Source: Candidatus Doudnabacteria bacterium RIFCSPHIGHO2_02_FULL_43_13b (GTDB lineage Bacteria; Patescibacteriota; Doudnabacteria; UBA920; O2-02-FULL-48-8). From it: a DNA stretch of 33,778 nucleotides. Below the pieces are notes generated by a model that was given only the letters and a program-made list of their open reading frames with translations, searched no databases and was not told where the DNA came from. The stretch spans positions 60,723 through 94,500 of the forward strand of contig MFER01000012.1 in NCBI GenBank assembly GCA_001777655.1, in the 5' to 3' direction. Below are positions 3,579 to 33,146 of the stretch, piece after piece (the first letter of the stretch is position 1; the number at the start of each line of letters is the position of its first letter). The position numbers and the translations under genes are program-made.

Positions 3579-3938
3579 ATGCCATATTTATATAACAGTC
3601 AACGATTGAAGCTTAGGCGCAAGAGCTTTCGTAATAATATGCCACAATCCGAGCAAGTACTCTGGTATTATTTGAAAGGCAAGAATCTTAAGGATTATAA
3701 GTTCCGGAGGCAATACAGCGTTGGGAAATATATACTCGACTTTTTCTGTCCTAAGCTAAGATTGGCTATAGAATTGGATGGTGATTCTCATTTTATTGAT
3801 GATAGGGCGAAAGTTTATGACAAAAACCGGCAGAAATTTTTATCTTCTCAAAATATTACAGTTATTCGATTTACTAATACAGAGATTTCAGAGAGCATAG
3901 ATGGTGTGATTGATAAAATTTCAAAGCATCTCCCTTGA
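3579..3938 (+). CDS. DUF559-type (Vsr-like/PD-(D/E)XK) endonuclease-like protein
   Basis: 119 aa with LRRKSFRNNMPQSEQVLWYYLKGKNLKDYKFRRQYSVGKYILDFFCPKLRLAIELDGDSH, typical of the DUF559 family (YKFRRQ, DF..P..LAIELDG..H). Confidence 0.85.
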   Translation: MPYLYNSQRLKLRRKSFRNNMPQSEQVLWYYLKGKNLKDYKFRRQYSVGKYILDFFCPKLRLAIELDGDSHFIDDRAKVYDKNRQKFLSSQNITVIRFTNTEISESIDGVIDKISKHLP

Positions 3939-8180: not shown

Positions 8181-8582
8181 ATGATCAATGTTCAAAATTC
8201 AAACAAAGTTCAATTGAAAAATGATCAAAAGTCAAATAAAAAATTTGATCTCGAAGATTGATGCCTTAAATTTAGTCAAGACATTATCGATTTCTTAAGA
8301 AAATTAAATAGAGACCCAATAAGTACCCCGATGATTAGCCAGTTAATCAGATCCGCAACGAGTATTGGCGCAAATGTATGTGAAGCTAACGAAGCGAACT
8401 CGAAGAAAGATTTTATAAACAAAATTGCTATCGCCAAAAAAGAAGCCAGAGAAACTAGGTATTGGCTAAAGTTAATACTGTATATGTTTCCTACAGATAA
8501 GCCGATAATTGAAAAATTGTTACAAGAAGGCCAAGAATTAAATCTAATTCTTGCGGCCATTATTCGCAATTCTAAAAATTGA
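8181..8582 (+). pseudogene. Four-helix-bundle (S23/23S rRNA IVP-like) protein with an in-frame TGA
   Basis: From ATG 8181 the frame reads MINVQNSNKVQLKNDQKSNKKFDLED*CLKFSQDIIDFLRKLNRDPISTPMISQLIRSATSIGANVCEANEANSKKDF... The stop is TGA 8259-8261. The paralog at 21095 has YDLEERTAKFGEEVIKF at this site. Confidence 0.7.
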
Positions 8583-20351: not shown

Positions 20352-20575
20352 CTACTTTTTAACCACAGACTCAAAAAGAGGAAGAGATACATAAGGACTC
20401 CTGCAACCACAATGAGAATAATTAGTGTCAGGATAAAGCCGATAATGCTTCGCCATAATTTTCTCTTCTTGGCCTTCATTGTATCAACAACCGCTTCCGA
20501 TATTGAAAAGCCTAGGAAGCCTAAAATTGTATCAATAATTGTATCGATGATCATAGATTTAATTTTCTGGTGCAC
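20348..20575 (-). CDS. Small two-TM membrane protein
   Basis: Overlaps the RNHCP gene by 4 nt; hydrophobic segment SIIGFILTLIILIVVAGVLMYLFLFLSLW. Its start would overlap the outer tRNA 3' end. Confidence 0.45.
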   Translation of the reverse strand: MHQKIKSMIIDTIIDTILGFLGFSISEAVVDTMKAKKRKLWRSIIGFILTLIILIVVAGVLMYLFLFLSLWLKSR

Positions 20576-20772
20576 CCACCAGGAGTTGAACCTGGAACCT
20601 TGTGGTCCGAAGCCACACGCTCCCCGCCCGCCTGACTCGCTAAATTTTAAGTTGGTGACCCCGGTAGGATTTGAACCTACTACCTCCTGGTTCGAAGCCA
20701 GGCGCTCTATCCAAATGAGCTACGGAGTCTCGTCGGGCGAGTCGGGCGGGTATCCAATTGAGCTATGGGTGC
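20568..20772 (-). tRNA. Interrupted tRNA-Arg(TCG): halves 20751-20772 and 20568-20622, split at the D-loop/D-stem boundary by a 128-bp insert
   Basis: Joined halves give GCACCCA TA GCTC AATTGGATA GAGC G TGTGG CTTCGGA CCACA AGGTT CCAGG TTCAACT CCTGG TGGGTGC A CCA, with all stems paired. Confidence 0.85.
20653..20729 (-). tRNA. tRNA-Arg(TCG), CCA encoded, nested inside the interrupted tRNA-Arg
   Basis: GACTCCG TA GCTC ATTTGGATA GAGC G CCTGG CTTCGAA CCAGG AGGTA GTAGG TTCAAAT CCTAC CGGGGTC A CCA. Confidence 0.93.
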
Positions 20773-20841
20773 TCGTTTAGCCCAAAAATCATAACATTTT
20801 TGCTAGTTGAAATCAATGTCGCGGAGTGGTAAGCTAAGGGC

Positions 20842-21094: not shown

Positions 21095-21460
21095 ATGAAC
21101 AATGATCAAACTCCAAACAAACGTTATGATCTAGAAGAAAGAACTGCAAAATTTGGTGAAGAGGTGATAAAATTTTGCAATGAGTTACCGAGAACTGATA
21201 TTACAAGGCCATTGATAAATCAATTAATTAAATGTGGAACTGCCGTAGGAGCAAATTATTGCGAGGCCGATGATGCTGAGAGTAAACTAGATTTCAAACA
21301 TAAAATAGGAATCTGCAAAAAAGAATCAAGAGAATGCAAACATTTTTTGCGAATGATCTGGGTGGCAGTCCCAGAAAAAAAAGAAGTGGCATTGAAACTA
21401 TGGAACGAGGCGAAAGAGCTAAATCTTATTTTCAATGCAATTAATAATAAGCTTAAATAG
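21095..21460 (+). CDS. Four-helix-bundle (S23/IVP-like) protein
   Basis: YDLEERTAKFGEEVIKFCNELPR...LINQLIKCGTAVGANYCEADDAESKLDFKHKIGICKKESRECKHFLRM. Confidence 0.88.
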   Translation: MNNDQTPNKRYDLEERTAKFGEEVIKFCNELPRTDITRPLINQLIKCGTAVGANYCEADDAESKLDFKHKIGICKKESRECKHFLRMIWVAVPEKKEVALKLWNEAKELNLIFNAINNKLK

Positions 21461-21529: not shown

Positions 21530-22603
21530 ATGGTTAACGTAAAGAATATTTACCTATTCTTCGGAGAAGACGATTTTTCGCTCAAACGGAAAATTGAGCT
21601 TTGGAAGGCCGAGTTCGCCAAAAAATACTCGCCACAAGCAGTGGTTTTTTTTGACGCGGCTGAATTTTCAGAGCTTGATCTGATTTCAAAACTAACAGCA
21701 GAACTTGCGCCATCCTTATTTTCGGCCAAAAAACTTTTGATCGTTCGTGACGGGTTGCCTAAAAAAACGGAACCCGCCCGCCTCGCAAGCGAGAGCGTTG
21801 CGGGCAGGCAAGAAAAATTGGCGGAATTTCTTTTAAAATTGCCACAAATCACGCCGAAGGATTTTTTTATAGTTTTTTGGCAAACATCCAAGATGGACGG
21901 CAGAGTAAAATTTTTTAAGCAATTTGTAAGCTTAGTCAATGTTACAGAATTTAACTTGCCGCATGGGCAAGCTTTAAATACTTGGATTAAAGCCACCAGC
22001 CAGACCCTGGACGTCCGGATTACTGACGAGGCCGTCGACCTTTTGGCCCAATACCTCGGCCGGGATTTGTTTGAAGAAAAAAAATTTGGCGGGAAAGTAG
22101 TGGATCGTAAAGAAGCCTATAATTTATGGCAAGTATATTCGGAATTATCCAAACTAGCCTCATCCACCACTGATCCGATTAGTCCTGATTTAGTCAAAAG
22201 TTTGGTCAAACCCAAGCTGCCCGATTCAGTGTTTAATCTCAGTGATAATCTAGCCTTGCACAACCAAGAGGCGGCTTTTCAATCCCTGGAAAATTATTTA
22301 GAAACAGCCACCGGTGATGAAAAATCAGCTTTTATTAAAATCACCGGGCTTTTGGCAGAACAGTTTCGGAGTTTGCTGCTCATTAATTTATTGCAAGCCA
22401 AACAGTTGACCAATGCTCAAATTGCAGAAAAATTAGGCTGGAGCAGCGGTCGGGTATTTATTTTAACCAAACATAGCAAGAACTTTTCGAAAGCAAGTCT
22501 GATCAAGCTCTTGGGGCAACTTCTGGTGGTTGATCAGAAAATAAAAAGCACAGACGCAAACCCTCGGTTGCTTTTAGATATGTTTATCCAGCACCAGTTT
22601 TAA
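21530..22603 (+). CDS. holA: DNA polymerase III subunit delta
   Basis: YLFFGEDDFSLKRKI, KKLLIVRDGL, ALHNQEAAFQSLENYL, LLAEQFRSLLLINLLQ, LLDMFI. Confidence 0.85.
   Translation: MVNVKNIYLFFGEDDFSLKRKIELWKAEFAKKYSPQAVVFFDAAEFSELDLISKLTAELAPSLFSAKKLLIVRDGLPKKTEPARLASESVAGRQEKLAEFLLKLPQITPKDFFIVFWQTSKMDGRVKFFKQFVSLVNVTEFNLPHGQALNTWIKATSQTLDVRITDEAVDLLAQYLGRDLFEEKKFGGKVVDRKEAYNLWQVYSELSKLASSTTDPISPDLVKSLVKPKLPDSVFNLSDNLALHNQEAAFQSLENYLETATGDEKSAFIKITGLLAEQFRSLLLINLLQAKQLTNAQIAEKLGWSSGRVFILTKHSKNFSKASLIKLLGQLLVVDQKIKSTDANPRLLLDMFIQHQF
21773..21808. repeat. GC-rich palindromic insertion in frame in holA
   Basis: 36 nt (cccgcccgcctcgcaagcgagagcgttgcgggcagg) encoding PARLASESVAGR in an AT-rich gene. 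Confidence 0.6.
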
Positions 22604-22630
22604 ATTTTGTCCAAACTGGTGCCGGATTTA
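22586..22630 (+). terminator. Inverted repeat/terminator at the holA stop
   Basis: atccagcaccagttt / aaactggtgccggat (14/15) followed by a T-rich tract; arm overlaps the last codons. Confidence 0.6.
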
Positions 22631-22710
22631 TTGCTTTTTACTAATTAAGCCTCCTTTGCGGCCGGCTCGCCTGGTTTTTTCTGGATGATTAGCAAAATTA
22701 GATGTTACGA

Positions 22711-22744
22711 GAAAAAAAGAAGCTCTAGAGAAAGCTCTAGAGCT
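22711..22744 (-). terminator. Terminator for the radical SAM gene
   Basis: Minus strand agctctagag cttt ctctagagct followed by tctttttttctc. Confidence 0.85.
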
Positions 22745-22753
22745 GGGATTGTT

Positions 22754-24316
22754 TCAGAAGCCGCTTGCCATCTTCCACGATTTGTCGTCAGCCAATTCGT
22801 TGAGTTGCGTGTCCTTGGCTGAAAGTCTGAGGTTTTGCGGCAGCGGGAAGTGCTCAAAGCCGTAAAACTCTCGACGTAGCGGGAGGTATTCGGAGACATG
22901 GTCTAGTTTTACGCGGTTGATTCCACCCGACATCGGATGTTCGCCTCGAGCGACCGTTGTCAGAGAAAATCTGGCGTTACTGATAGCCATGCTCCGTTGT
23001 CTGTCGTAATGCCGGCCGGAGGGCACCAGCTTTCCGAGAGTGGCCCAGACTTGGGGTTTGGAGTAAAATTCCCGGTAGCAATACTGGAACATCTCCAGCT
23101 GCTGCTGGTCCGTGAGTTGCTCGTGCCGCCAGGTCGGTCTCGTGCCGTTGAACCGGTCAAGGTTCGTTTCCGTGATGACGTTGCCAGCGGACAACACCTC
23201 AGCGTAACGATCCGTGCCCGGGATGTGGGTCAGGATCCAAAACGACGCGGTTAGCGGGCCAACCCCTTTGAGCTGTTCCACGCCATCCTTGATGCTCTCC
23301 ACCGTGTCCTCCTCAAACCCGACGATGTTGGAGAAGTGCGCCGTAATGCCCGATGCCCGGAGCAGCTCCACAAGTTCCGTGTAACGCTTGGGATTGTTAT
23401 GCCCCTTGCGCCGTTTCTGCAGGACCTTGCGGTCGAATGATTCTGCTCCGAGGAACACCTCGTAGCAGCCAGCCAAACCTAGTAGCTCGATCAGCTTGGG
23501 TTGGTCCACTAGGTCCATATCGCATTGGACCATGAAAGGGATCGTCACCCCGGCCGCGATCATGGCTTCAAGCAACTCTTTGCGCTCACCGTACTTGTTG
23601 AAGTTGTCGCACGTGAACATAACGAGTTTCACGCCCGCGGTTTGCGCCGCAAGAAGAGTCTGAACCGTGACCGAAATCGGTTGCGATCGTTCCAGCCGGC
23701 CAAAGATTTCCTTCACTGAGCAGAAGTTGCAGGTTTTCGGGCAGCCGCGCGCGGGTGTGACCCCTTGCATGGCGCCCATATACCGTTTTTGTTCTTCAGC
23801 AGTGAGAGGTTCCTGGATCGGCGGGTTTAGTGATTCCGCCCATCGGCTTTCAGCCCCATATACCGGGGCGAGCATGCCGTTGGTAGCATCGAAGAGAATC
23901 TGTGGCCAAATGACCTCTGCTTCGGCCTGGCTGAAACTCACGCCCCTGCCCTGCAACATGGACGTGTCGCAGGTCATGGAGTGGGGGCCACCGATGATGG
24001 CCATGCCACCGTTTCGGACCGCGATCGCGGCCAAATCTGCTGCCCGGTGGATCTGTTGGGTTTGTGTTCCCACCGCCGCAAACAACAGATGCTCACCAGC
24101 CTCAGGCTTAAGCCTTGATTGGTAGTTGGTGTCAGTGTGGACGTATTCGTCGAACGTTTCGACATTGATCGGCACACCGTTTACGTAAGATGGAGTCAAA
24201 CCACGCAGATGCAGCCGCGTGGTATTGGGCATAAATCCCACCTTGTAGCGTTGTACGAACCCGTCAAGGTCGTACGGCGACGGTTTGATCATGACAATAC
24301 GCAACGCGCGCTTCAT
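22754..24316 (-). CDS. B12-binding/radical SAM protein
   Basis: GCPKTCNFCSV cluster motif; IGGPHSM; radical SAM barrel motifs. Confidence 0.85.
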   Translation of the reverse strand: MKRALRIVMIKPSPYDLDGFVQRYKVGFMPNTTRLHLRGLTPSYVNGVPINVETFDEYVHTDTNYQSRLKPEAGEHLLFAAVGTQTQQIHRAADLAAIAVRNGGMAIIGGPHSMTCDTSMLQGRGVSFSQAEAEVIWPQILFDATNGMLAPVYGAESRWAESLNPPIQEPLTAEEQKRYMGAMQGVTPARGCPKTCNFCSVKEIFGRLERSQPISVTVQTLLAAQTAGVKLVMFTCDNFNKYGERKELLEAMIAAGVTIPFMVQCDMDLVDQPKLIELLGLAGCYEVFLGAESFDRKVLQKRRKGHNNPKRYTELVELLRASGITAHFSNIVGFEEDTVESIKDGVEQLKGVGPLTASFWILTHIPGTDRYAEVLSAGNVITETNLDRFNGTRPTWRHEQLTDQQQLEMFQYCYREFYSKPQVWATLGKLVPSGRHYDRQRSMAISNARFSLTTVARGEHPMSGGINRVKLDHVSEYLPLRREFYGFEHFPLPQNLRLSAKDTQLNELADDKSWKMASGF

Positions 24317-27896: not shown

Positions 27897-30244
27897 TTTT
27901 CGATTTCTGGCGGGTCTACGCCATACTCCAAAATATAGGCGGAGTGCCCAGTTAATTTTTTCCGATACTTATCCTGCATTTGCTTGGCCTCTGCTGGTTT
28001 CAGGACGCCGTTTACTCCCATCTTTTCGAATATCTCAATCGCCAAATGGTAACGGCTGGTTTGGTTACGCACGTGCATGTCGAATGGTGTGGTTGTGGAG
28101 CCATGTTCGATGTAGCCATGAACGCTAAATCGGTTTTTGTTGTTGCCATAATCAAACAAAATTTGTTTGAGCGTTTGCGGATAACCATGAAAATTAAAAA
28201 TAACTGGTTTATCGTGCGTAAAAAAGTCCTCAAAGTCATGGAACGGCACGCGGCAACTCATATCGCCCAATCCAAGCGCGGACAGAGCCAACACGTTGAT
28301 AAAACGAATTTTAACTTGCGGGGTTTCTTGCTTGACGATGGTGATTGCCGCCAGCGCTTCTTTGGTTAGATAATCGCCAACAGCGGAAACCACCACATCC
28401 GGCTGGTCATCAGACGCAAATTCCCAAATCATCAACCCGCGTTTGAGTTCTTGCCGGGCTTGATCCACCGTCAGCCAACGCGGCTCCAAAGTTTTGCCCG
28501 CCACAATCACGTTTAAGGACCGAGTGGAATTTAAGCACTGTTCCAATACGACCAGCGTCGTATTGCCGTCCGGTGGAAAATAAATATTGATAAAACATCC
28601 CGGTTTTTGCAGCATGTCGTCGATAAATCCAGGATTTTGGTGCGAAAATCCATTGTGTTCTTGGCGCCAGCCCGAGGAAGTGAGGATATAGTTGATCGAA
28701 GGAAATAAACCGCGCCAGGGGACCGTTTCTGCCACTCCCAAAAATTTGGTATATTGGTCAGCCATGCTGGCAATAATTTGAACAAATGCTTCGTAGGAGG
28801 CAAAAACCGCGTGTCGCCCAGTCAGCACGTAGCCTTGCATTAGTCCTTGTAAGCTATGTTCGGAAAGCATTTCGATCACACGACCCGAATGCGCCAAATC
28901 TTTATCCCAAGGTTTCAGTGGCCAGGTAAACACGCGTTTGGTTGCGGCAAAAATTTGGTCTAATTTGTTGGAATAAGTTTCATCCGGCGAAAAAAATCTA
29001 AAATTGTTTGTTTTATCGTTAAGTCGAAAAATTTTTTCCAGATAAGCTCCGGTTCGCCGCATACTGCTCGAACCAATTACACCAGGGTACTGTACTGCTT
29101 CAGCAAATTCTTCAACCTTTGGTAAATTTAATGACTGAAAGACCGCCTCTCCGCCAAAAGCATGTTTGTTGTTGCCCATGCGCAGTTCTTCCGGTGGGAT
29201 AATAGTCTGAATTTGTTCGTTAAATCCCAAGCGCGGATCGAATAGCTCCTCAAATTTATAAGAACGGAGCCATTGCTCCAAAGCTTTGAGTTCCACCGGA
29301 TCGGTTTTAGCCGCCTGGGCAACAACTTGATGGGCCAGAAAATTTCCTTCAATCTTTTGTCCCTTCAATTCCTGAATGCCGGTCCAGCCTTTAAGTGTCC
29401 TTAGAATAATCATCGGGAATTTGACGGGCAAACTGCCTCCTGCTCGAACCGCCGATTGAATCGATTTAATTTTCTGATAGCAGTTTTCCAGAGTCGTTAA
29501 CATTGAATTATAAATTTGATCATCTTCTCCTTCCACGATATAAGGCTGGTAGCCAAAGCCTGTGAACAGCGCAGTTAATTCTTCATTGCTCATACGGCCG
29601 TATATGGTTGGGCCAGAGATTTTGTAACCGTTTAAATGTAAAATCGGCAGGACGGCGCCAGAGCCGATTGGGTCCAAAAATTTATTCAAATGCCAGGCAG
29701 TGGCCGTGGGGCCAGTTTCCGCCTCACCATCGCCGATTAAGCAGGCCACTATCAAATCCGGGTTATCCAAGGCCGCCCCATAAGACGTGGCGAGGGAATA
29801 TCCCAATTCGCCGCCTTCCAAAATTACGCCCGGCGTACCCGGGCTGCTGTGACTTGGAAATCCGTAAGGCCAACTGAAATTTTTGACGATGTAGCCAATA
29901 CCGGCTTCGGTTATTTGAGCGTCCGGATAATACTTGGCCAAAGTTCCTTCTAAAAATAAGTTCGATTGCAAACCGGGAAAACCATGGCCAGGGCCGAGCA
30001 CGAATAAAATTTCTTGCCGGTGTTTAATTATTAGGTAATTTAAATGAGCGTAAACAAAATTTATTCCCGGACAAGTACCCCAGTGCCCAAGCAGTCGCAA
30101 CTTGATATCGTCGAAATTTAGCGCTTGTTTGAGTAAAAAATTACTGCGCAAATAGATTTGCGCTACGGTCAAATAATTCGCCGCGCGGACGTATTGTTTA
30201 ATCGCTCCCAGGTCTGTTTTGGTTTGGGTTTCGTCAGATTTCAT
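27872..30244 (-). CDS. xfp: Xylulose-5-phosphate/fructose-6-phosphate phosphoketolase
   Basis: GHWGTCPGINFVYAHLN, GPGHGFPGLQSNLFLEGT, IGDGEAETGP, HLNGYKISGPTIYGR, WRQEHNGFSHQNPG. Confidence 0.95.
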   Translation of the reverse strand: MKSDETQTKTDLGAIKQYVRAANYLTVAQIYLRSNFLLKQALNFDDIKLRLLGHWGTCPGINFVYAHLNYLIIKHRQEILFVLGPGHGFPGLQSNLFLEGTLAKYYPDAQITEAGIGYIVKNFSWPYGFPSHSSPGTPGVILEGGELGYSLATSYGAALDNPDLIVACLIGDGEAETGPTATAWHLNKFLDPIGSGAVLPILHLNGYKISGPTIYGRMSNEELTALFTGFGYQPYIVEGEDDQIYNSMLTTLENCYQKIKSIQSAVRAGGSLPVKFPMIILRTLKGWTGIQELKGQKIEGNFLAHQVVAQAAKTDPVELKALEQWLRSYKFEELFDPRLGFNEQIQTIIPPEELRMGNNKHAFGGEAVFQSLNLPKVEEFAEAVQYPGVIGSSSMRRTGAYLEKIFRLNDKTNNFRFFSPDETYSNKLDQIFAATKRVFTWPLKPWDKDLAHSGRVIEMLSEHSLQGLMQGYVLTGRHAVFASYEAFVQIIASMADQYTKFLGVAETVPWRGLFPSINYILTSSGWRQEHNGFSHQNPGFIDDMLQKPGCFINIYFPPDGNTTLVVLEQCLNSTRSLNVIVAGKTLEPRWLTVDQARQELKRGLMIWEFASDDQPDVVVSAVGDYLTKEALAAITIVKQETPQVKIRFINVLALSALGLGDMSCRVPFHDFEDFFTHDKPVIFNFHGYPQTLKQILFDYGNNKNRFSVHGYIEHGSTTTPFDMHVRNQTSRYHLAIEIFEKMGVNGVLKPAEAKQMQDKYRKKLTGHSAYILEYGVDPPEIENWTWQKNI

Positions 30245-30482
30245 AACAATTTAATTATACACCTTTTGTTCCAATCTGTAACCGAAAAAAATCGCCCAGA
30301 AGGCGGTTTATTTGTTAAGATCATGAGTGCTCCTGCTGATCTCCAAGCCCTTGACTTAATGCTTTGATTTGCTTACTCTGAAGAGTAATACTCGTCCTCT
30401 GGTAATGACAGTTTTCTGCAGATTGACAACCCTGCGGAGGATCATCGGAAACAGCAAAACTCAAACCAAGGAGTAGTTTGAC

Positions 30483-31499
30483 ATGACCCAGATGAAGACC
30501 GTCCTGTCCGGAATCCGCGCCACAGGAACGTCGCACCTCGGCAACTACATCGGCGCGATTGCGAGGTTCGCTCGCATGTCGCAAGATCCGCGATATCGTT
30601 GTCTGTTCTTCGTCGCGGACTTCCACACTCTCACCACGCTCAAAGAAGCGGAACAGATCAAAAAGCATCTGCCGAACATGGTGCTGGATTATCTGGCCGC
30701 CGGCGTGGATCTTTCACACTCGGCGATCTACGTCCAGTCGGACGTGCCGCAGGTCACCGAGCTGGCCTGGCTCCTTTCGTGCCTGACACCAGTCACCCAC
30801 CTGGAAGGTCTGCCGACCTACAAGGACAAAAGAGAAAAGCATCCGGAAGACATCAATGCTGGACTTTTCAACTATCCGGTCCTCATGGCCGCCGACATTC
30901 TTGGTCCCCGGGCTGATCTCGTGCCTGTCGGATCAGACCAAAAGCCCCACATTGAACTGACGCAATCGTTGGCGCGGAGGTTCAACAACCTCTACGGCCA
31001 CTACTTCCCAGTTCCAGGCGTATTGCCAGACATGGTTCTGGTTCCCGGCTTGTCGCCGATGGATGAGCGCGGTGGGTTTGCCAAGATGGGCAAAAGCGAC
31101 GGCAACACCATCAACTTGGGCGACACGCCGGAGCAAACCTGGGACAAAATTCGAGTCGCGCCGACGGATCCGCAACGAGTCCACCGGACAGACCCCGGTA
31201 ACCCGGATCACTGTTGCATCTTCGCCCTCCACCAATATGTGAGTACGCCGGAACAGCTGGCGTGGAGCAGGGAAGGGTGCATGTCGGCGGGAATTGGCTG
31301 CATGGACTGCAAGCGTGTCCTTGCCGACAACATCAACCACATGCTGGCCGAATTCCGCGAACGAAGGATGCAATTAGCCCAAAAACCAGACGTCATCCGA
31401 GATGTTCTGGTCGAGGGCAAACGGCAGGCCGAAGTGTTGTTCAATGAAACCATCGAACATGTGCGCGAGCGCATGGGAATCCGGAGATGGGGATCATGA
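30483..31499 (+). CDS. trpS: Tryptophanyl-tRNA synthetase
   Basis: SGIRATGTSHLGNYIGA (HIGH-like), KMGKSDGN (KMSKS-like), YPVLMAADIL, VGSDQKPHIELT. Confidence 0.92.
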   Translation: MTQMKTVLSGIRATGTSHLGNYIGAIARFARMSQDPRYRCLFFVADFHTLTTLKEAEQIKKHLPNMVLDYLAAGVDLSHSAIYVQSDVPQVTELAWLLSCLTPVTHLEGLPTYKDKREKHPEDINAGLFNYPVLMAADILGPRADLVPVGSDQKPHIELTQSLARRFNNLYGHYFPVPGVLPDMVLVPGLSPMDERGGFAKMGKSDGNTINLGDTPEQTWDKIRVAPTDPQRVHRTDPGNPDHCCIFALHQYVSTPEQLAWSREGCMSAGIGCMDCKRVLADNINHMLAEFRERRMQLAQKPDVIRDVLVEGKRQAEVLFNETIEHVRERMGIRRWGS

Positions 31500-31738
31500 C
31501 GTATATCCCAACGATCGAATCGATCAACGTCCTCTGCCCAAACTGCGGCATGATTTTCGGCAACATCCCGAAGGATGGCCCAATTCCTTGCCCCAGTTGC
31601 GGCAAAACGCAAGCCCGGCCGGTCATTCTGATCGGTCGAGACGAATACTCCTGCCTGGACTGCCGAACCAAGTTCGGCAGTCCGACCGCGGATGGGGCCA
31701 GATGCCCCGAATGCGGCCAGCAACCAGGTTTTAGCTAG
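31496..31738 (+). CDS. Small zinc-ribbon protein
   Basis: ATGA overlap with trpS; four CxxC pairs (CPNC, CPSC, CLDC, CPEC). Confidence 0.75.
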   Translation: MTYIPTIESINVLCPNCGMIFGNIPKDGPIPCPSCGKTQARPVILIGRDEYSCLDCRTKFGSPTADGARCPECGQQPGFS

Positions 31739-31751
31739 AGTCAGGTGGCCC

Positions 31752-33146
31752 ATGAAAACGAAGACTAACTGGGCATGGCCGAAGCGGGGTGTTCCTATGG
31801 CAGAAATCCGCCAGGCTTGGAATGACGCCAAGCGGAAAAACATCGACTACCGGACAGATCCGGTGTTGGGTTTTCCTGGGACAACCCCGCTTCCCGAAGC
31901 CGTAGCAGCGACCCGAGCGATGATTCCGTTGCAGCCCAATGGAATTGGAATCTACACGACCGGGGAAAGAACAGAGATGGGGTTTGAAGGCACCCAGGCT
32001 CTAGAAAAGGATTTCGTTTTGAGGCTGGCGAACCTGCTGGGGTCTGCCAAACCTGAAACAGAAGTTGACGGTTACCTCTGCAACGGCGGCAATGAAGGTA
32101 ATGACCACGGCACCTGGTTGGGCCGCAATTGGCTGTTGGAACACGTGCGACCCAAAGCACCTGGAGGGCGGGGCATCGCTTTTATGACCTCATTCCTAAC
32201 TCATTACTCGGCTGAGAAACAATTCAACCGATTCTTGAAGCAGGAAGCTGGATTGATCAAAAAACCGGCTGATCGGAACATCCTGAAACTCCTGCCGACG
32301 AATGCGCAAGGCCAGTTGGACGCCCAGATTTTGAATCAGGCGATTCTTCAGCTTTACGCCGTTGGCTACCGTAGGTTCCTGATTGTACTGACGGTTGGCA
32401 CGATCAATGTTGGCAGCATCGATGCGGTCGAGCAGATCGACGGTCTACTCGACAATCTGAAGACGAAGCTGAACCCGAAAGGCCGATCGGGCCTGGGGTT
32501 TTATGTTCACGTCGACGGGGCGTTCGGCGGACTCGTGGCGCCGTTTGTTCTGCCGGAAGTGAAATTTGGGTTTCAGAACCGATCCGTCATGTCCATCTCG
32601 GTGGATATGCACAAAATGGGCAGCGTTCCGTATCCGGCTGGAGTGTTTCTGTGCCGGAAGGGATTGCTTCAACATACCATCACTGATGCCCCTTACCTGT
32701 TCGGGCATAAAGACAAAACCGTGCCCGGATCGCGGAGTGGGACTTCCGCTGTGGCGTGCTGGAGCGTGATGATGAAGCAAGGGCGTGAAGGGTTTAGAAA
32801 ACGAATCCAAAAATGCCTAAATCTGACCGAATGGTTGCGGCTAGGTCTAATCAACCTGGAAGCAACTCATGGCCGGATTCGCTTCTACCCGACCCAAATG
32901 GATATCCTCACCGTTAGACTGCCTCCCAGCCTTCGCCGGGCGATGGAGAGCAAGGACCGGTCTAGAAAACCCCTGTGGGAACGCTACTGCGTGGTCAGAA
33001 TCAAGCACTTCCCCAAGGACTTGACGCGGCCGGTTCTGCGGGGTAAGATGAAGGGCTCAGTTGTCTATCGGTTTCTCATCATGCCGCATGATACGGTCGA
33101 GAAAATCGACCAATTCCTCTGCGAGCTTGCTGAGAAAACGAAATAA
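31752..33146 (+). CDS. Group II PLP-dependent amino-acid decarboxylase family protein
   Basis: GYLCNGGNEGNDHGTWLGRN, FYVHVDGAFGG, SISVDMHKMGSVPYPAGVFLCR. Start placed at ATG 31752; the ORF track starts at 31692. Confidence 0.88.
   Translation: MKTKTNWAWPKRGVPMAEIRQAWNDAKRKNIDYRTDPVLGFPGTTPLPEAVAATRAMIPLQPNGIGIYTTGERTEMGFEGTQALEKDFVLRLANLLGSAKPETEVDGYLCNGGNEGNDHGTWLGRNWLLEHVRPKAPGGRGIAFMTSFLTHYSAEKQFNRFLKQEAGLIKKPADRNILKLLPTNAQGQLDAQILNQAILQLYAVGYRRFLIVLTVGTINVGSIDAVEQIDGLLDNLKTKLNPKGRSGLGFYVHVDGAFGGLVAPFVLPEVKFGFQNRSVMSISVDMHKMGSVPYPAGVFLCRKGLLQHTITDAPYLFGHKDKTVPGSRSGTSAVACWSVMMKQGREGFRKRIQKCLNLTEWLRLGLINLEATHGRIRFYPTQMDILTVRLPPSLRRAMESKDRSRKPLWERYCVVRIKHFPKDLTRPVLRGKMKGSVVYRFLIMPHDTVEKIDQFLCELAEKTK

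Follow-up and report, generated by a model that had tools for sequence, protein, structure and literature searches.

A tRNA-Arg gene nested in the D-loop of another tRNA-Arg gene, and its palindrome-flanked relatives in other genomes: candidate mobile cassettes that replace the gene they break

In the window, the whole stretch of 33,778 nucleotides analysed here and part of contig C12 of a draft Doudnabacteria genome (G000), a complete tRNA-Arg(TCG) gene lies within the D-loop of a second tRNA-Arg(TCG) gene, and nests built on the same plan recur in related genomes. The reading that best fits these sequences, and that we consider probable, is that the insert is a mobile cassette flanked by palindromes and that its tRNA has replaced the cognate gene broken by the insertion. 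The case is read from the sequences themselves: the anatomy of the locus, its recurrence, the matching of inner to outer gene, the empty orthologous sites, the foreign affinity of the inner gene and the redundancy of the outer one.

Anatomy of the nested locus and its genome

The outer tRNA-Arg(TCG) gene (20772-20568; this and all features described in this section up to the promoter are on the minus strand) is split between nucleotides 21 and 22 by an insert of 128 bp (20750-20623) that encloses the complete second tRNA-Arg(TCG). Its 5' half (20751..20772), identified from the sequence and joined-gene tests, holds nt 1-21 in 22 bases and ends in TTGGATA, and its 3' half (20568..20622; GAGCG...CACCA), identified from the sequence and the uninterrupted orthologue in G009 (locus L016), holds nt 22-73 plus CCA. 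The split gene was detected neither by ARAGORN nor by Rfam; once the halves were joined, they gave a 77-nt tRNA-Arg(TCG) with four fully paired stems (21/21 pairs) and CCA, and ARAGORN called a tRNA across the junction. The inner gene (20653..20729) is intact and encodes its CCA, as judged by ARAGORN (call at 20729-20653), the Rfam tRNA model (70.6 bits) and identity comparison. On its upstream side lies the left inverted arm, CCCGCCCGACTCGC (20737..20750), which was read from the sequence and is also found in G035, G029, G021, G393, G200 and others. On the other side, an AT-rich spacer of 12 nt (20641..20652), seen by alignment, leads from the inner CCA to the right inverted arm, GCGAGTCAGGCGGGCGGG (20623..20640; sequence, fold and alignment), which has an extra CGGG on the side adjoining the outer gene. 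The spacer is 12 nt in G035 too and is short or missing in most of the other aligned D-loop cassettes. These results bear out two claims of an earlier sequence-only reading of this DNA, namely that excising 20623-20750 restores a paired tRNA-Arg(TCG) with CCA and that the insert holds a second intact one. The arm pairing which that reading had proposed (8 bp, a 4-nt bulge and 6 bp) is possible as an alternative and was superseded, as the best pairing, by a predicted 6 bp + 1x1 mismatch + 7 bp (CCCGCC-C-GACTCGC / GCGAGTC-A-GGCGGG) with the CGGG unpaired. The inverted repeat is confined to the insert, and the arm stem pairs insert with insert.

A consensus scan placed a sigma-70-like promoter (20788..20816; TTGATT, 17 nt, TATGAT, extended TG) directly ahead of the outer tRNA, and this is the sole candidate promoter for the outer and the inner gene. 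The gap between the outer 5' half and the inner gene is only 21 bp long and consists entirely of arm and linker. A separate promoter for the inner gene would not fit there, and the cassette must therefore use that of the outer gene.

G000 measures 0.78 Mb in 17 contigs and is 99.7% complete, with a contamination estimate of 4.8%. In nearly all cases ARAGORN found a single standard gene per anticodon, one Arg-TCG included; besides the split outer gene, the inner gene is the sole Arg-TCG of the genome. With its small genome and one gene per anticodon, the organism is plausibly of a reduced lineage like those of the candidate phyla radiation. Four further nests are present in G000. On C11, an intact outer Ile gene holds Ile(GAT) in its anticodon loop; a Pro(TGG) nest on C12 has an outer Pro gene that lacks the anticodon arm and has complete acceptor and T stems; and the Arg(TCT) and Pro(GGG) nests, both on C6, have decayed outers. 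Rfam cmscan of the whole window returned three tRNAs only. Elsewhere in the window, GC content is 0.51-0.53 at 22001-24000 and 30001-32000, compared with about 0.40-0.43 around the nested tRNA (bin contamination, 4.8%); two ORFs (8331-8582 and 21095-21460, the latter some 320 bp away from the nest) belong to the 23S rRNA-intervening-sequence protein family (PF05635); and an ORF of the restriction-endonuclease-like DUF559 family (3579-3938) is flanked by larger genes.

Nests in related genomes and the match of inner to outer genes

Nests in relatives occupy three sites: the D-loop, the anticodon loop and the T-loop. DNA searches revealed a D-loop nest in G008, where an inner Arg(CCG) lies within an intact outer Arg(CCG), and D-loop nests with decayed outers in G029, G035, G039 and G043; pattern and covariance-model searches added G021 (CCT) as well as G200 and G393 (both CCT), which belong to other orders of the phylum. 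Anticodon-loop nests, between positions 35 and 36, were found in G011 and G029 (TCT), G019 and G044 (Thr-TGT) and G000 (Ile), and T-loop nests in G027 and G017 (TCG), G045 (CCG), G037 (TCT) and G030 (CCT). The outer gene of G035 seems to hold two cassettes, both Arg-TCG, one in the D-loop and one in the T-loop, and in G029 the nesting is double: one Arg-TCT, a D-loop cassette, holds a further Arg-TCT in its anticodon loop. One D-loop site carries near-identical arms around varying tRNA-Arg isoacceptors in G008, G021, G029, G035, G039 and G043 of this order and in G200 and G393 of other orders. When eight D-loop cassettes were aligned, the arms were nearly invariant and had no compensatory change; the cargo varied freely with many compensatory changes, as would be expected for different tRNAs. 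The T-loop arms vary, and an exact-arm pattern for T-loop cassettes was too strict, matching only 1 of 384 genomes. Arms differ between sites and hosts, so that several unrelated element families may be involved. At one further locus (L312, G037:C81) a tRNA-Ala(CGC) stands between T-loop-type arms; there the pattern matched on the strand opposite the tRNA, which may reflect a reversed orientation, and the outer remnants are weak. The outer genes escape standard annotation, and with them a whole layer of these genomes goes unnoticed.

The match between inner and outer gene was quantified by a two-flank test, which looks for a single library tRNA, not the inner gene itself, whose consecutive halves account for the two flanks. 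It was applied to 231 distinct tRNA loci with a strict threshold of at least 13 net matches per half, and 17 loci in 13 genomes passed; the loci had been drawn by similarity to armed tRNAs, so the sample is biased to these and 17/231 is not a frequency. The inner tRNA was intact and isotype-matched in every strict case: inner and outer shared the amino acid in 17/17 and the anticodon in 15/17, and agreement of cargo and target had played no part in the selection of loci. For the Pro-TGG nest, whose outer gene lacks the anticodon arm, the best outer match was another Pro anticodon. When flanks were taken from different loci as a control, about 1-1.5% of trials passed the strict test, partly because one true half contributes. 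With a looser threshold of 10 matches per half, spurious outers appeared (4 of 30 were isotype mismatches), and we counted the strict set alone. Nesting exceeds chance, given the rate for mismatched flanks, the isotype agreement in all 17 strict cases and the presence of the same arms at the same nucleotide elsewhere.

Origin of the nests and fate of the outer gene

The site orthologous to the window's nest in G009 (L016) holds an uninterrupted Arg-TCG gene between the same neighbours, an RNHCP ORF and tRNA-Lys, and the orthologous Ile site in G008 is likewise uninterrupted. The broken outer Ile of G000 is identical (77/77) to the functional gene of five relatives. Because the orthologous sites are empty, and because of this identity in the case of Ile, the outer genes of the window and of the Ile nest are taken to be native genes that were recently broken. 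The nearest gene to the window's inner tRNA is one of G036, in a different family (74/77), the nearest to its outer tRNA is the G009 gene, in its own family (73/77), and the two are only 58/77 identical to each other; the affinities thus point to a foreign cassette that entered a native gene, and the window locus reads as a cassette transfer rather than an in-place duplication. The sequence-only reading had called for a search of relatives for the uninterrupted outer gene, found here in G009, and for the insert elsewhere, and the insert of G035, a genome of another family, matches the whole window insert at 112/128 positions.

Given these data, we favour a model that joins two options of that reading, a palindromic mobile element with a passenger tRNA, in keeping with the insert's place in a recurrent palindrome-flanked family, and a young outer pseudogene, in keeping with a recently broken native copy made redundant by an inner gene of the same anticodon. 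The cassette would be a promoterless tRNA gene between GC-rich inverted repeats, one member of a mobile family, that inserts into one of the loops of a tRNA gene already present; the window would show the recent arrival of such a cassette, foreign and carrying tRNA-Arg(TCG), between nt 21 and 22 of the native gene for the same tRNA. The native outer promoter would drive a single precursor running through the inner tRNA, which RNase P and the 3' enzymes of ordinary tRNA processing would release; the outer halves, as leader and trailer, would be discarded, and the outer sequence would then decay. Matching of isotype would come about without targeting, as only those insertions that bring a replacement for the broken gene would leave a viable cell; with one gene per anticodon, only replacements would survive, and this would account for the matching of anticodons. 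In this scheme we infer transposition, its enzyme, the processing and the loss of outer function. The searches revealed no mobilising enzyme, and comparison with the empty site in L016 revealed no target-site duplication. A Y1 transposase (PF01797), present in 27 of 50 genomes of the order, is absent from the nested genomes G000, G008, G005, G027, G021 and G029, and was rejected as the resident mobiliser on account of its absence from G000 and the other nested genomes.

Could the nests have arisen in place? A polymerase stalling in a cloverleaf might switch template and copy the gene, or an acquired relative, into its own loop together with palindromic filler; the nests would then need no transposon and the cargo match would amount to self-copying. 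Inner and outer are near copies in G027 and G017 (both Arg-TCG) and differ solely in two acceptor base pairs in the Ile nest of G000, and these three may have arisen locally; the position of the insertions in loops, the lack of target duplication and the piling up of palindromes in the same broken genes would fit as well. As a general account we nevertheless consider this unlikely, since conserved arms recur with different isoacceptors across families and orders, inner and outer are distant in the window and only distantly alike within the isotype in G008 (49 identities), and the window's inner gene is nearest to that of another family. In G002 and G003, inner and outer have the same native acceptor stem, indicating that not every nest needs a foreign cassette; these two cases led us to withdraw the idea of a constant difference between inner and outer acceptor stems that would avoid mispairing. 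Quite unlikely, in our estimation, is that the nests are by-products of homing by GIY-YIG nucleases, in which breaks in tRNA loops would be repaired from donor DNA with an intact tRNA and sometimes with the nuclease gene. A single query detected GIY-YIG ORFs in 41 of 50 genomes; many directly precede an intact tRNA gene that itself stands behind a 5' fragment of the same tRNA, and this fragment often has a palindrome at exactly the nested D-loop site. The free-standing homing nuclease SegB of phage T4 likewise sits between tRNA-Arg and tRNA-Ile genes (PMC2988022). Against this, no nest has such an ORF inside and none adjoins the nest of the window, G014 and G048 have a Val nest remnant and no match to the GIY-YIG query used, and the GIY-YIG units leave a 5' remnant only, whereas nests leave both halves. 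An artefact of assembly or binning, which a draft genome of 17 contigs with an estimated 4.8% contamination might invite, has a negligible probability: the same architecture turns up in numerous assemblies made independently, around intact as well as decayed outers and at loci that are orthologous as well as ones that are not, and this observation also disposes of the assembly chimera that the sequence-only reading had named as one possible refutation.

Across the nests, outer genes are found in all stages of decay. Every stem is kept in the window Arg, the G000 Ile and the G008 Arg; extra palindromes lie in the D-loops of the outers of G021, G011 and G026; the anticodon or CCA is lost in G039 and G021; and at the end of the series, in G046 (L007) and G031 (L010), the tRNA has scarcely anything around it except the flanking arms, and no outer is clear. 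The intact stems of the first three are also what is expected under selection on the outer gene, and the third option of the sequence-only reading was that the outer tRNA is processed from two halves: the insert stem would hold the halves together, the inner tRNA would be cut out, and the outer would be ligated or work in two pieces, as 23S rRNA does once an intervening sequence has been cut out. Consistent with this are the complete stems and CCA of those three outers, the D-loop junction, which leaves the strands of the D-stem whole, and a paired change at 7:66 between the window outer and its G009 counterpart (A-U against G-C). We nonetheless judge it very unlikely. The outer gene has the same anticodon as the inner and is not needed; RtcB (PF01139) was absent from 8 of 8 nested genomes in a search that was positive in 9 of 14 controls; no group I or group II intron or other intron model in Rfam was matched; and the inverted repeat lies wholly within the insert. 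The predicted fold showed no bulge-helix-bulge between exon and insert, and in it the outer acceptor stem was kept (P 0.99) with the D-arm (P 0.05) and the anticodon arm (P 0.19) lost, whereas deletion of the arms gave a predicted structure with both cloverleaves, the outer D and anticodon arms being restored. Most of the other outers are decayed, and many lack the anticodon, CCA or whole arms. The same folds gave no support to the arms as insulators of the inner fold, since the inner gene paired equally without them (0.70 in both) and the outer folded better.

Known elements and the meaning of the nests

Two other kinds of sequence accompany the nests in these genomes. GIY-YIG ORFs stand directly before intact genes for tRNA-Asp, Phe, Ala, Val, Met, Leu and Cys, and in several cases the ORF is itself preceded by a partial tRNA, either the 5' part of that same tRNA or a stretch resembling one, in which a solo palindrome often sits at nt 21/22; these units are probable tRNA-restoring homing elements. 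Such loci include L077 and L078 (tRNA-Asp of G039 and G035), L248, L249, L251, L264, L255 and L263, and, in G000, C17:7331-7555, C8:60530-60754 and C13:77465-77689. At L258 (G000:C11:1100-2100), around locus position 780-960, the start of a 16S rRNA gene stands close behind a GIY-YIG ORF, and an AT-rich insertion seems to lie near the beginning of this 16S sequence. Palindromes of the form CCGCCCGA...TCGGGCGG were also seen in frame (PARxxDxxRSGG) at G000:C16:36502-36535, G004:C1:99015-99048 and G008:C31:16585-16618, within genes that, judging from the flanking peptide sequence rather than a family search, are presumably those for AlaRS, MurC and RecG. In G000 the dispersed palindrome occupies nine places (on C1, C5, C6, C12, C15, C16 and C17), with eight copies of CCGCCCGA(CTGATCGTCGGA)TCGGGCGG, mostly within a larger repeat whose ends resemble CATTGCGAGGAG...GCGAAGCAATCT. 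A crossing, pseudoknot-like layout of the palindromes, noted early, was no longer relied on after the predicted fold. Palindromes, GIY-YIG-tRNA units and nested cassettes may together make up a single community of elements that inhabit tRNA genes.

For integrative elements, phages and plasmids, tRNA genes serve as attachment sites, and the insertion of these elements restores a complete tRNA. The nests resemble them in having a tRNA gene as target and a complete tRNA, the inner one, after insertion, but integrative elements rebuild one gene end through identical att sequences, whereas the nests bring a whole second tRNA and keep both halves of the first; no integrase ORF would fit the 128-bp insert, and identity of the att type is absent, as the 58/77 of inner and outer indicates. 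In archaea such as Nanoarchaeum, split and intron-bearing tRNAs are rejoined by a splicing endonuclease and a ligase through a bulge-helix-bulge. Those genes too are broken in loops, the D-arm and the anticodon loop among them; here, however, the arms belong to the insert only, RtcB is absent and the insert carries a tRNA of the same anticodon. A closer parallel comes from Caldiarchaeum, in which a mobile element at a tRNA-Thr gene left a 5' fragment and the tRNA identity is still served by a complete copy (PMC3293823). Integration at a tRNA gene, a fragment left behind and the retention of a complete same-identity tRNA make this locus the nearest conceptual relative of the nests, by analogy; the element differs in being 1.8 kb long and recombinase-encoding, with archaeal introns, and has no tRNA between the two halves of another.

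Bacterial tRNA genes have been described as lacking structural diversity save for group I and II introns at position 37/38 (review, PMC4033280). These introns are likewise mobile inserts within a bacterial tRNA gene, but they are self-splicing and sit at 37/38, whereas the nests are at 21/22 (window) and at 35/36 or in the T-loop (relatives), and the window insert of 128 nt is mostly tRNA and matches no intron family; with no Rfam match, a self-splicing intron was rejected. The adjacency of GIY-YIG nuclease genes to tRNA genes in this lineage recalls T4 SegB, from which the nested cassette differs in having no nuclease gene inside or adjacent, and the stem-flanked insert of the window recalls the 23S rRNA intervening sequence. 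We know of no description of Rickettsia palindromic elements (RPEs) or REPs that carry a functional tRNA or replace the gene that they enter. As with RPEs and MITE/REP palindromes, short GC-rich palindromes are spread through this small genome and inserted inside genes. RPEs can occur within ORFs (PMC3767692), and dispersed palindromes, some in frame, are what we found here, in solo palindromes with related CCCGCCCGA...TCGGGCGGG ends; the window insert is at most a tRNA-bearing relative of such RPE-like palindromes. Y1-mobilised elements of the IS200/IS605-REP type have terminal or subterminal hairpins and no target-site duplication; the window insert has imperfect inverted arms and no duplication against the empty site in L016, but a single arm, unlike those of REPs, forms no hairpin of its own. 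A literature search of partial coverage returned no nesting of a tRNA in a tRNA, its only "nested tRNA" being a tRNA-Sec within the selB gene.

Taken with these comparisons, the nested cassettes look like a type of mobile element that has yet to be described, in which the cargo takes the place of the essential gene broken by the insertion. Such an element would survive in an essential single-copy gene by bringing the replacement with it, and recurrent, isoacceptor-matched nesting at defined loops would be a new gene structure and also, probably, a mobile element of a new kind. We lean toward the broader view that these are self-spreading replacement elements, promoterless tRNA cassettes that cross species, enter three loops, seize the resident promoter and make the cell dependent on them. 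The orthologous empty sites and the several independent cases make the idea directly testable. If it is true, foreign genes repeatedly replace essential decoding genes in small-genome bacteria that have one tRNA gene per anticodon, and nested cassettes would offer a way in which the decoding apparatus of reduced genomes can be replaced horizontally.
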